Assembly: GCA_945949525.1 (NCBI GenBank)
Contig: CAMFES010000014.1
Span: forward strand, 1 to 33,007
DNA: 33,007 nt
From: an uncultured Veillonellaceae bacterium
GTDB lineage: Bacteria > Bacillota > Negativicutes > Selenomonadales > Selenomonadaceae
Reading direction: 5' to 3'
Shown here: piece by piece, positions 9,822 through 33,007 of the stretch
Position numbering within the stretch: the stretch's first letter is position 1
How the letters are laid out: every line of letters starts with the position of its first letter
Made by a program: the position numbers and the translations under genes
Notes under the pieces: generated by a model
The model's database searches: none
What the model saw: the letters and a program-made list of their open reading frames with translations, nothing else
What the model was told of the DNA's origin: nothing

Positions 9822-11135
9822 TTAGTTCAGATAATCTGCCAGACTGCCCGGCAGAATCTTGGAGCCTACGGACAGCGACATGCTGTATATTGTCTGATAC
9901 TCCATCAGCTTGGTGGCCAGGTATGCCACATCTGTGCTGGCTACATCCGTAATATCGCCGTTGATGGATTCGTTCTGAGTAGTCAGCATGCCGGAAGCGG
10001 ATTTGTATGCCTGCTGGCGTGCCGCCATCTTGGTTTCGGCTCCCAGCACTGTAGCGTGAGCCGTATCTGCGATAGTCATGCCCTCGGCACCGGCCCACTT
10101 GTAGTCACCGCCCTCAATTTTTGCCACGGCGTACATCAGCTGGTTCAGCATTGCCGTACCGGTAGGAGGATCATCGTTTACATCAAATATGTCTGTGCCG
10201 TTGATATCCTGACCGGTAACATTTACTGTATCAGTAGCCGGATCCACGCCGCCATTTTTCTTGACCATGGAGATATATTTGTCATCGCCATTGTATTTGA
10301 CAATGTACTGCTTTTCCGTGGCAAAGGTCAGCTTCACGCCGTTAGTTGTTGTTGCACTCCAATCAGTACCAGTGCCAGTGCCTGTAGCCCCGGTCTTAAT
10401 CACACCATAGGAATCGAAATGAGCTGAAATGTCAAACCCGGTTACATTATCAATTACCTGACTTGTATCACTGCGATCAAGCTTTGTTTCATTTTTATAG
10501 CCATTGACGACAAAATCCTCCGTGAAAATATCACCGTTCTGCACATTCATATAATAGTTGTTGCCATCATCGCCCTTGAGCTTCAGCATCTGCTTCAGGG
10601 TTGTATTTTCCTTACCCCATTCGTCAGCACCTGCGAAAAAGGCCTGCTGCTTCTCATCCAGTGTAAAGGTTTCGCCCCTGTCCATTTTATCATCGGTGAT
10701 GGTAAACGGCATAGTGGTATCCTTTTGCCCGGCAAACAGAAAGCGGTCACCAATCTGGGTATTCAGGTCTGCCACCTGCTCCTGCACATTGGCCAGCAGC
10801 TCTTTGGCAATATCCTTCAAATCGCTATCGTTGTTGGTGGAGTTGGATGCCTGCTCCACCTTCGCCTTGAAGGTCTGCAAAAGATCCGTAACATTTACCA
10901 GCGCCGCGTCAGCGTTCTTCATCCAGCTGGTTGCTGTGCTGACGTTGTCCCGGTACTGCTCATTGCTGATTTTATTGTTCTGGTAACGTAAGTATTTTGA
11001 ATATCCCACCGCATCATCTGACGCCCTGTGCAGCCTGCTGCCATCACTTTGCTCCATGAGCTTGGCATACTGCTCATATGTGCCATTAAGCTGCTTTAGA
11101 TAATTGTGGGACATCATTGTACTTGCTATACGCAT
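9822..11135 (-). CDS. flgL: Flagellar hook-associated protein FlgL (HAP3)
   Basis: FlgL joins the hook-FlgK junction to the filament. The N terminus MRIASTMMSHNYLKQLNGTYEQYAKLMEQ and the following RASDDAVGYSKYLRYQN are flagellin/FlgL D0-D1 motifs. The C terminus (SINGDITDVASTDVAYLATKLMEYQTIYSMSLSVGSKIL) is typical. A GTG at 11144 is in frame, but ATG 11135 has GGGTG six bases upstream and gives the usual MRIxxxMM start. The 437 aa are well above the roughly 300 of Bacillus FlgL; the extra length is a Thr/Gly/Asp-rich exposed domain (about residues 150-350). Confidence 0.93.
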   Translation of the reverse strand: MRIASTMMSHNYLKQLNGTYEQYAKLMEQSDGSRLHRASDDAVGYSKYLRYQNNKISNEQYRDNVSTATSWMKNADAALVNVTDLLQTFKAKVEQASNSTNNDSDLKDIAKELLANVQEQVADLNTQIGDRFLFAGQKDTTMPFTITDDKMDRGETFTLDEKQQAFFAGADEWGKENTTLKQMLKLKGDDGNNYYMNVQNGDIFTEDFVVNGYKNETKLDRSDTSQVIDNVTGFDISAHFDSYGVIKTGATGTGTGTDWSATTTNGVKLTFATEKQYIVKYNGDDKYISMVKKNGGVDPATDTVNVTGQDINGTDIFDVNDDPPTGTAMLNQLMYAVAKIEGGDYKWAGAEGMTIADTAHATVLGAETKMAARQQAYKSASGMLTTQNESINGDITDVASTDVAYLATKLMEYQTIYSMSLSVGSKILPGSLADYLN

Positions 11136-11200
11136 ATATTTCACCCTGCTCTCTATTGTGGTTTAACTGTCAATATCTATATCATATACTATATCTGGTA

Positions 11201-12968: not shown

Positions 12969-13436
12969 CTACACATTGGCCTCGAACATCTTGCTGCCCT
13001 GTACCGGCCTGCCACCGCTATCGCCCGGTGTTCCGTAGGTTACCCCCGCCGCTGTACGGGTCATGACATTTACGTTATAGTCGATATATTCTATGTTTTT
13101 ATTTAAATATTGCAGATTGTTGCCAGAGGCTTCCTTTAGTTTCTGCAATAGTCCTGCCTGCTTTGCCAGCAGCTGCACAGCCATCTTTTTTTCCAGGCCT
13201 TCCGGCTGGCTGTCCACCCACGCTGCCGCATCCTTGCCGCCGTTTTTCTGAAGGAACTCACGGCGCTTCTTCTCCAGTCTGTTCAAATCTATCACTACGG
13301 CTTCAATCTCCTTGGTAAGCCGCTGTACAGCCGGGGCCGCCGTATTGACCAGGGCATTGCACTGCTCCTGCGTCAGCTCCAGCAGTCTGAGGCACAGCAC
13401 CAGCTGCTGTCTGATAATGTGTATCAACTCCTGCAC
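12969..13436 (-). CDS. Second FlgN-like protein (export chaperone paralogue)
   Basis: A 155-residue, mainly helical protein between flgN and flgK. It resembles FlgN in plan: an N-terminal helical pair (IIRQQLVLCLRLLELTQEQCNALV), a central charged helix (VIDLNRLEKKRREFLQ), and a C-terminal helix NLQYLNKNIEYIDYNVNVMT followed by a TYG tail, the region that binds FlgK/FlgL in FlgN. The start is GTG; the GGAGG that serves it overlaps the end of the upstream FlgN gene, whose stop is two bases away. Adjacent FlgN-like genes suggest separate chaperones for FlgK and FlgL, or a heterodimer. Similarity is structural in feel rather than strong in sequence. Confidence 0.65.
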   Translation of the reverse strand: MQELIHIIRQQLVLCLRLLELTQEQCNALVNTAAPAVQRLTKEIEAVVIDLNRLEKKRREFLQKNGGKDAAAWVDSQPEGLEKKMAVQLLAKQAGLLQKLKEASGNNLQYLNKNIEYIDYNVNVMTRTAAGVTYGTPGDSGGRPVQGSKMFEANV

Positions 13437-13439
13437 CGG

Positions 13440-13925
13440 CTATACCTCCAAATCAAAGTTCTTTATGTGGGACACCTGCTCCTGTCCCCTGCTGCCGTAG
13501 GCAGGCTCCACCATGGAGCCACCCAGCTGGTTCAGCCGGAAATTGACTGCATCCAGCGCACTGGCCACGAGAATTCCGTTGTTGGCCACGGCCTCCTGCA
13601 CCTCATCCACCAGCCTGCCCAGCATCCTGTGCAGCTTGTAGAGGGTTTCCCTCTGCTGCCTTTCCGGGCACTGGGACCATACGCTGTCCATCTGCATGTC
13701 GGGACTGACCCGGATGCCGCTCTTCGCCATCCTGCCCAGCAGCTCCTGCCGCTTTTTTTCAGTCCGGTGGATTGCACTGACAACCTCTTCCTCCTGCCTG
13801 ACCAGCCGTTCCAGCTCCTGCAGCTTCACAAGAACCAGCACGCCCCTCTTTTCCTCATTCAGCTGCTTCAGCTTCTGGTAATCGGTTATCAGCTCTGCCA
13901 GTATCCTGGCCAATTCCTGCCACAT
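13440..13925 (-). CDS. flgN: FlgN-family flagellar export chaperone
   Basis: FlgN chaperones the junction proteins FlgK and FlgL to the export apparatus. This 161-residue protein shows the family layout: LARILAELITDYQKLKQLNEEKRGVLV, then LQELERLVRQEEEVVSAIHRTEKKRQELLGRM, and a C-terminal amphipathic region with VASALDAVNFRLNQLG. GGGGGAGG lies seven bases before the ATG. It follows flgM by 39 bases and precedes its paralogue by two bases, matching the flgM-flgN-flgK order in Bacillus. Confidence 0.85.
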   Translation of the reverse strand: MWQELARILAELITDYQKLKQLNEEKRGVLVLVKLQELERLVRQEEEVVSAIHRTEKKRQELLGRMAKSGIRVSPDMQMDSVWSQCPERQQRETLYKLHRMLGRLVDEVQEAVANNGILVASALDAVNFRLNQLGGSMVEPAYGSRGQEQVSHIKNFDLEV

Positions 13926-30973: not shown

Positions 30974-32695
30974 TTACTGCAGCAGGCTCAGAACCCCGGA
31001 GCTGTTCTGATTGGCCTGTGCCAGCATGGACTGCGCCGCCTGCAGCAGCACGTTGTTCTTTGTGTATTCCGTCATTTCCTTTGCCATATCCGCATCGCGT
31101 ATGACTGACTCTGCACTGACAGTATTTTCGCTGGCAGTAGTCAGGTTGGCCCGGGTGTATTCCAGCCTGCTTTCAATAGCACCTATGTTGGTCTGCTGGT
31201 CCAGCACCTTTTCTATGGCATTGTCCAAAATAGTAATGGCCTGCTTTGCCTTGACGCGGGTTCCCACACTCAGGGTACTGCCGTTATCAGCCTTCAAGCC
31301 CAGTCCCTCGGCGCTGATACTGCCAAAAGCAGAATTAATTACCTGATTAGCCTTGGTGCCTACCTGAAATTTCAGTCCTTCCCCCTTCTGAAAGTCAGGC
31401 CACTTGACAGTAAGTCCATTTATCAGGGTTGAGTTGGCGCTTGGATAATACCAGAATTTTGTATTCAGGCCTTCCAATACAGTCCCTTTATCATCACGCA
31501 CCTCCCCCTGATTGGCATCCGCACCGAGAATTGAGCCCACATCAGGGTTGTCCAGATCTATGCCACAGGAATTCAGCAGAAATGCTTTTATATCGCCCGC
31601 CGCCGTCTTTGCCCCATTGAAAGCGTCTATCATTTCCTGCAATGTATTAAACCTGCCACTGGTAGCAGAATTAACAGCCTTGTCTTTATCCCCTTCATAC
31701 TGTACCAGAGCCTGCATAAAGGCCTGTACACTGCCACTGCCGCATTGCTTATTCATATAGCGCAAAAAAGCATAACCGCCGGCATAAGCACCCTCGCCGG
31801 ACATGCCATCTGATAAATCAGGCAGACTTTCCAACGTCCCCCTTCTGTTATCATCTATACCGTGGGTAACCTCGGCAAAGCCCTCTTTGATAAACATAGG
31901 CAGGCTTCCACAATTTTTGATATTGGCAGACATGACAGCATGCGTAAGCTCATGGGCAATAACACGATCCAAATACTGAGTGCCGGTGGAAGGCGAGGAA
32001 CCATTTGGATCGCTTTCATCCAGGTCGTTGTAATAGTACATGTTAACTGTAAGGGTCAGCTTTGTGGTAACACCACCAGTAGCACCGGACGTAACATAGG
32101 CCAATCTGTCATTACCACCCTCATCCTTCAATACCACTTCCATTTCGGTGACGCTTGCTCTGCCATCAGTGAAATTAAGGCCATAAGCATCCTGTATCAT
32201 GTCAAAGCTGGCCTTGAGCCATTCAGAATTTAGTGCCTTGATGATGGTATCCTGCACGGATTTGCTGATATCCGCACCGCCATCAAAAATTCTTATGCCA
32301 TTGAAGGTGACATTGGCATTATCTGAAATCTGGTCAATGGCCTGATCCAGCTCCTTCTGGATGGTTGCCCTGTCAATATCCGTGTTGGTATCATTGGCGG
32401 CGTTAATCGCTTTTTCTTTCAGGGTTTTCAGTATATCGACCGTGGAGGATGCCGCTCCCTCTGCCGTCTGCAGCAGACTGCCTGCATTCTGAGCATTGGC
32501 ATTTGCCTGATCCAGCGCCCTGATCTGTACCCGCATTCTTTCAGATATGGAAAAACCGGAGGCATCATCAGCGGCACTGTTTATTTTCATGCCGGAAGCA
32601 ACTTTTTTCAGGCTCTTGGACAGCGCCTTGCTGTTTTTATTCAATTTATTCAATGTCTGCTTGGCAGGCATATTATTTTTTACTACCATAGCCAT
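30974..32695 (-). CDS. Flagellin with inserted zinc metallopeptidase domain (flagellinolysin-like)
   Basis: This 573-residue flagellin has conserved D0/D1 ends: residues 1-140 (including SGMKINSAADDASGFSISERM and VTFNGIRIFDGG) and about 440-573 (IGAIESRLEYTRANL, SVIRDADMAKEMTEYTKNNVLLQAAQSMLAQAN). The variable region between them is replaced by a gluzincin-type peptidase. It has H248-E-L-T-H252 (two zinc ligands and the catalytic Glu249) and E271 in KEGFAE, placed like the third ligand of collagenase-like enzymes, with E275 behind it. YLDRVIAHELTHAVM and GGYAFLRYM are typical of the fold. This is the arrangement of flagellinolysin, which assembles into proteolytic filaments. GGAG lies eight bases before the ATG. 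A sigma-28 promoter precedes it and a terminator follows. No ordinary flagellin is seen in the window. Confidence 0.93.
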   Translation of the reverse strand: MAMVVKNNMPAKQTLNKLNKNSKALSKSLKKVASGMKINSAADDASGFSISERMRVQIRALDQANANAQNAGSLLQTAEGAASSTVDILKTLKEKAINAANDTNTDIDRATIQKELDQAIDQISDNANVTFNGIRIFDGGADISKSVQDTIIKALNSEWLKASFDMIQDAYGLNFTDGRASVTEMEVVLKDEGGNDRLAYVTSGATGGVTTKLTLTVNMYYYNDLDESDPNGSSPSTGTQYLDRVIAHELTHAVMSANIKNCGSLPMFIKEGFAEVTHGIDDNRRGTLESLPDLSDGMSGEGAYAGGYAFLRYMNKQCGSGSVQAFMQALVQYEGDKDKAVNSATSGRFNTLQEMIDAFNGAKTAAGDIKAFLLNSCGIDLDNPDVGSILGADANQGEVRDDKGTVLEGLNTKFWYYPSANSTLINGLTVKWPDFQKGEGLKFQVGTKANQVINSAFGSISAEGLGLKADNGSTLSVGTRVKAKQAITILDNAIEKVLDQQTNIGAIESRLEYTRANLTTASENTVSAESVIRDADMAKEMTEYTKNNVLLQAAQSMLAQANQNSSGVLSLLQ

Positions 32696-32771
32696 TGCAA
32701 AATCTCCCTCTCTGGAAAATCTACAAAATTCAATATCTTAATATGCTAAAATCGCAATGTTGTTAAAGAAA

Positions 32772-32798
32772 TTATCGAAAAATCTCTCCCTATTGTTA
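32772..32798 (-). promoter_or_regulatory. Predicted sigma-28 promoter of the flagellin gene
   Basis: On the minus strand TAAC (32798-32795) and TTCGATAA (32779-32772) are 15 bases apart, matching sigma-28 spacing and sharing the TTCGATA core with the flgM promoter. The start would be near 32765, giving a leader of about 70 bases. The only GGA in that leader is in the ribosome-binding site GGGAG, so CsrA may have a single clear site there. Confidence 0.75.
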
Positions 32799-32892: not shown

Positions 32893-33007
32893 GGGTGAGC
32901 AGGGGCAATACCTATAGAAAACACGCTCGCGCTCCTCATTGTGCCTAGCGGATGCTAAGCTCTCGCTTCGCCTGATGGCTCGCGAATCGCTAAGCACCGA
33001 GGCACAA
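32893..33007. repeat. Truncated second copy of the nested inverted-repeat element (probable)
   Basis: From about 32893 the sequence follows the same plan as 19951-20049: a GTGAG start, an A-rich AGAAAAC segment, then a hairpin opening with TTGTGCCT (about 32939) and closing with GAGGCACAA (33007). GCTAAGC occurs inside both arms. The GAGGCACAA closing arm is identical to 20040-20048. CGCTCGCGCTCCTCA (32914-32938) resembles the reverse complement of the GAGCGAGAGCG segment before the right outer arm of the first copy. The window ends before the rest. Confidence 0.5.

Follow-up and report, generated by a model that had tools for sequence, protein, structure and literature searches.

A flagellin gene with peptidase motifs raises the question of whether the filament it contributes to is enzymatic, and how large a share of that filament the enzyme would form. 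The window (the whole stretch of 33,007 nucleotides analyzed here) comes from an Anaerovibrio of gut or rumen, a member of the Selenomonadaceae closely related to A. slackiae, and the gene occupies positions 30974-32695 of its minus strand (573 aa, ATG at 32695, stop TAA), a strand assignment absent from the earlier note on this DNA. The best explanation of the locus as a whole is, very probably, a flagellinolysin, i.e., a zinc peptidase on the surface of a mixed filament.

Gene architecture and family membership

The protein had been described from its letters as flagellin ends around an insert with HELTH at residues 248-252 and EGFAE at 271-275. These positions were exact, Pfam agreed with the layout, and the peptidase insert spanned about residues 143-432. 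The features of the locus were:

30974..32695, minus strand: flagellinolysin coding sequence, 573 aa (NF033876, 291.5 bits vs cut-off 205)
32276..32683, minus strand: Flagellin_N, residues 5-140, filament core D0/D1 (PF00669, E 2.3e-34; also hit in the genome search)
31742..32266, minus strand: peptidase N-terminal block, residues 144-318 (domain mapping; modelled secondary structure, pLDDT mostly >90)
31940..31954, minus strand: HELTH, residues 248-252, invariant in 34 full-length relatives
31871..31885, minus strand: EGFAE, residues 271-275, invariant in 34 relatives; its alignment with the HExxH-X18-E segment of M1 gluzincins keeps the register
31400..31735, minus strand: C-terminal block of the peptidase (residues 321-432), composed of helices plus a beta hairpin; first-placed in permuted relatives
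30980..31237, minus strand: Flagellin_C, residues 487-572 (PF00700, E 5.7e-22)
32771..32798, minus strand: sigma-28-like promoter TAAC-N16-TCGATAAT (matched in 0.75% of shuffles; family-wide enrichment)
32704..32710, minus strand: probable ribosome binding site GAGGGAG, read from the sequence

The contig end just upstream of the gene (32918-33007) had inverted-repeat character. Elsewhere in the window, the neighbouring genes at 12969-13436 and 13440-13925 both matched the flagellar chaperone family FlgN.

The NCBIfam equivalog for flagellinolysin (NF033876) matched the protein well over its cut-off (291.5 bits vs 205, E 1.3e-86), across residues 112-504 and model positions 1-384, i.e., the full model length. 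Such a match settled family membership by itself, in line with the identity first proposed and with the Pfam flagellin ends, and together with five key residues invariant in 34 relatives it excluded chance. Flagellinolysins were described in 2017 by Eckhard and others (PMC5595980) and form MEROPS family M101, with a further characterization in Hylemonella in 2020 (PMC7643111). They are proteolytic in Clostridium haemolyticum (PMC5595980) and Hylemonella gracilis (PMC7643111), the characterized members cleaving peptides in a metal-dependent manner, and the C. haemolyticum member was found in filaments (PMC5595980, PMC7643111). The window gene adds one more flagellinolysin to this already known family.

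Pfam Peptidase_M9 gave no match over its gathering score for the window protein, M9 matches occurred in 5 of 14 flagellinolysin members (all sub-threshold, best E 0.0016), and Pfam M1 matches were weak and below threshold. PDB sequence searches with the insert or its profile returned no peptidase match. Protein matches in a plasmid collection were partial (<60% identity), consistent with ordinary flagellins having common ends, and were set aside.

Active site, fold and selection

Residues H248, E249, H252, E271 and A274 were invariant in 34/34 full-length relatives sharing the standard order of the two peptidase blocks, in agreement with the earlier reading that all catalytic residues are present. 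H248, H252 and E271 are the predicted zinc ligands, E249 the putative general base that would activate water, and A274 the candidate basement Ala. The spacer from HExxH to Glu was 18 residues in the window protein and 17-21 in most relatives read.

The AlphaFold2 model (mean pLDDT 84.5, most of the insert >90) displayed in the N-terminal block a helix (147-171), a three-strand sheet (184-190, 199-206, 209-218), the HExxH helix (242-258) and a helix with E271 (267-278). Modelled this way, the three-strand sheet would be followed by two consecutive helices, the first with HELTH and the second with E271, as expected for the element order of gluzincins. As no M9 genome was found among the 249 Bacillota genomes in which one was sought, M1 gluzincins were used for the profile-profile comparison, and the insert profile aligned with them in register over the HExxH-X18-E segment (P 9e-5, vs 0.15 and 0.44 for flagellin control profiles). 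Fold searches with the full-length model (Foldseek, VIA) returned lists filled by flagellins (flagellin-core match at Z about 23), because the flagellin core dominates the model. The structure prediction called for by the earlier note was favourable in helix order, and the profile comparison in M1 segment spacing; an overall gluzincin fold of the insert is inferred.

Asn 218, nearly invariant across the Selenomonadaceae set, aligned with an Asp of the distant Bacillota member L112, and the corresponding residue was Ala or Val in two proteins from other families of the class (L007 and L013). If the Asp of L112 corresponds to the published calcium ligand, calcium dependence may differ in the window protein.

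Compared with A. slackiae, the insert showed a dN/dS of 0.09 and is therefore under purifying selection. At larger distance, a congener at the same locus (the Selenomonadaceae MAG with L052, sharing the gene neighbours) had flagellin ends 77-86% identical and an insert just 45-46% identical, so that the surface peptidase diverges much faster than the flagellin frame. This contrast would also fit a catalytically dead insert retained for a structural or adhesive role or for antigenic variation, since flagellin surface domains diverge fast, and one permuted relative (L039) is without one zinc ligand. However, the catalytic residues kept in every one of the 34 standard-order relatives and the low dN/dS make a dead domain very improbable. 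The proposal that the filament is probably enzymatic is backed, as a predicted activity, by the family model, conservation, dN/dS, promoter, AlphaFold2 model and family biochemistry.

Under the preferred reading, an active zinc peptidase, the flagellar type III apparatus would export the protein by its conserved ends, which would then assemble as the core of the filament. The insert would fold at the surface into a gluzincin-type enzyme, with extracellular proteins or the flagellins of other cells as its substrates.

Promoter and filament composition

The sigma-28 promoter reported earlier corresponded to a sigma-28-like element, TAAC-N16-TCGATA (32771-32798, minus strand), whose CGATAAT begins 82 nt before the ATG. 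When this upstream region was shuffled, a match of the TAAC-N16 form arose in 0.75% of cases. Among standard and permuted relatives, such a match was present in 48% of upstream regions vs about 1% of shuffles; this enrichment was obtained with the canonical spacer. Transcription would start from this sigma-28-type promoter.

The window itself contains a single flagellin, as noted before, the FlgL at 9822-11144 being a hook-associated protein. From this lone flagellin the earlier note had concluded that the protease might be the major subunit, a reading that its sigma-28-like promoter would also fit; as a major or sole subunit it would place an active site at nearly every surface position. The genome search for other flagellins that had been advised was run and found four more, giving five flagellins on five contigs (C14 with the flagellinolysin, C19, C20, C58 and C18) in a genome 82.6% complete. 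At least two of the four further genes also have sigma-28-like promoters. In C. haemolyticum, moreover, a non-proteolytic flagellin dominates and the protease ranks second in abundance among the flagellins (PMC5595980). Finally, at least one member of the genus rated 100% complete (G003) is without a standard flagellinolysin, so that the gene is accessory in the genus. The search thus lent no support to a major-subunit role, which appears unlikely, and with five flagellin genes the filament is most likely mixed, the protease being one component.

Two of the other flagellins, L002 (contig C19) and L004 (C58), carried large inserts with a common motif, GF.I.C.AC..F..I.FDA; the L002 insert had no Pfam match at E 1e-5.

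Distribution in Selenomonadaceae

The nearest named relative was A. slackiae WCA-693-APC-5D-A (L027), with an insert identity of 88%. The genes downstream followed the same order in A. slackiae: ornithine-type decarboxylase, DegS-like kinase, Orn/Lys/Arg decarboxylase and thymidylate kinase.

Matches over the NF033876 cut-off were found in 53/189 Selenomonadaceae species genomes vs 3/299 genomes of an even Bacillota sample, and some match (E 1e-25 or better) in 135/189 of the former. The window gene extends proteolytic flagellins to Anaerovibrio, and given how common they are in Selenomonadaceae, the flagella that these bacteria bear in gut and rumen may be enzymatic surfaces. In other families of the class, L007:1186-2838 and L013:1210-2499 encoded a standard-order peptidase with no recognisable flagellin ends, one of the two retaining residual flagellin-like sequence.

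Circularly permuted relatives

Many sub-threshold NF033876 matches consisted of model pieces in the wrong order. These proteins were full-length flagellins that ran from flagellin N to the peptidase C-terminal block, then to the N-terminal block, which holds HExxH and Glu, and ended in flagellin C. This order was displayed by 24 of the 64 classified flagellin-borne proteins having both peptidase blocks, including members of the window's own genus and family (e.g., L065:5719-7497 of A. lipolyticus DSM 3074, L039:3781-5541, L093:5488-7266 and L024-L026). The genome of A. lipolyticus DSM 3074 has both orders, and in L039 they are encoded next to each other. Assembly error as a source of the swapped order was ruled out, the order recurring in many independent isolates and MAGs.

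The aligned permuted set comprised 22 of the 24, of ordinary flagellin size, one being cut by a contig end. HExxH was present in all 22, and the zinc Glu in 21. The exception, L039:3781-5541 from S. ruminantium ATCC 12561, had Ala at this third zinc ligand, and its activity has possibly been lost, judging by the substitution; an intact copy of standard order follows immediately downstream. A stop codon separated the two blocks of a permuted flagellinolysin in L066:5656-7485 and L113:643-2472.

Modelling of the A. lipolyticus DSM 3074 protein (pLDDT 76.6) gave an identical set of secondary-structure elements in which the blocks had changed places. Aligned to the window insert, its insert scored 298.5 as it stands and 483 after rotation. 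In a tree of the N-terminal block, with poorly resolved deep forks, the distant outgroup members had the standard order; this suggests that the permuted order is derived.

The permuted module also occurred without flagellin ends, in 17 further proteins. In the three of these that were checked (L097:1726-7140, L100:5839-7728 and L101:5962-7311), the permuted module came first and RTX calcium-binding repeats came after it; the repeats scored over the Pfam cut-off in two proteins and just below it in the third. Quite likely, then, the flagellin-borne peptidase of Selenomonadaceae has two circularly permuted forms, which often share a genome and are sometimes encoded by neighbouring genes, and RTX-repeat proteins share the swapped module.

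A limited literature search on circular permutation in flagellins or Selenomonas flagellinolysins found nothing relevant, no mention of permuted flagellinolysins was found in two papers on the family (PMC5595980, PMC7643111), and the permutation of the peptidase in at least 22 flagellinolysins is apparently undescribed. If true, an enzyme domain within a flagellin would have undergone circular permutation in nature and would have moved between flagellar and RTX-type proteins. How a surface domain of a flagellin tolerates rewiring could be learned from the permuted relatives as a natural experiment, and both forms are available in isolates (S. ruminantium ATCC 12561 and A. lipolyticus DSM 3074).

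Comparison with known systems

FliA(H) of C. haemolyticum (M101; PMC5595980) has flagellin ends and a gluzincin insert in the variable region in common with the window protein, and both proteins have the HExxH, Glu and Ala residues and a mass of about 60 kDa. The spacer from HExxH to Glu is 24 in FliA(H), as implied by the published His237 and Glu262 (PMC5595980), vs 18 here. At the position of a possible calcium-site Asp the window protein has Asn 218, judged through an alignment with the distant member L112. The hosts belong to different classes, that of FliA(H) being clostridial and that of the window belonging to Negativicutes. The remark in the earlier note that the insert differs from clostridial examples was therefore correct, in spacer and Asn 218, but the differences are modest.

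HgrFlaMP of Hylemonella gracilis (PMC7643111), likened here by description, has the same architecture, with HExxH at 249-253 vs 248-252 in the window protein; its host is a Gram-negative betaproteobacterium, in which the gene sits among non-flagellar genes (PMC7643111). The A. slackiae protein (L027) has the same length and gene neighbours, with 47 amino-acid differences in 573 and a weaker sigma-28-like element (CGATGA). Finally, the permuted protein of A. lipolyticus (L065) shares the flagellin ends, the peptidase blocks and the catalytic residues with the window protein, and the order of its two blocks is swapped.
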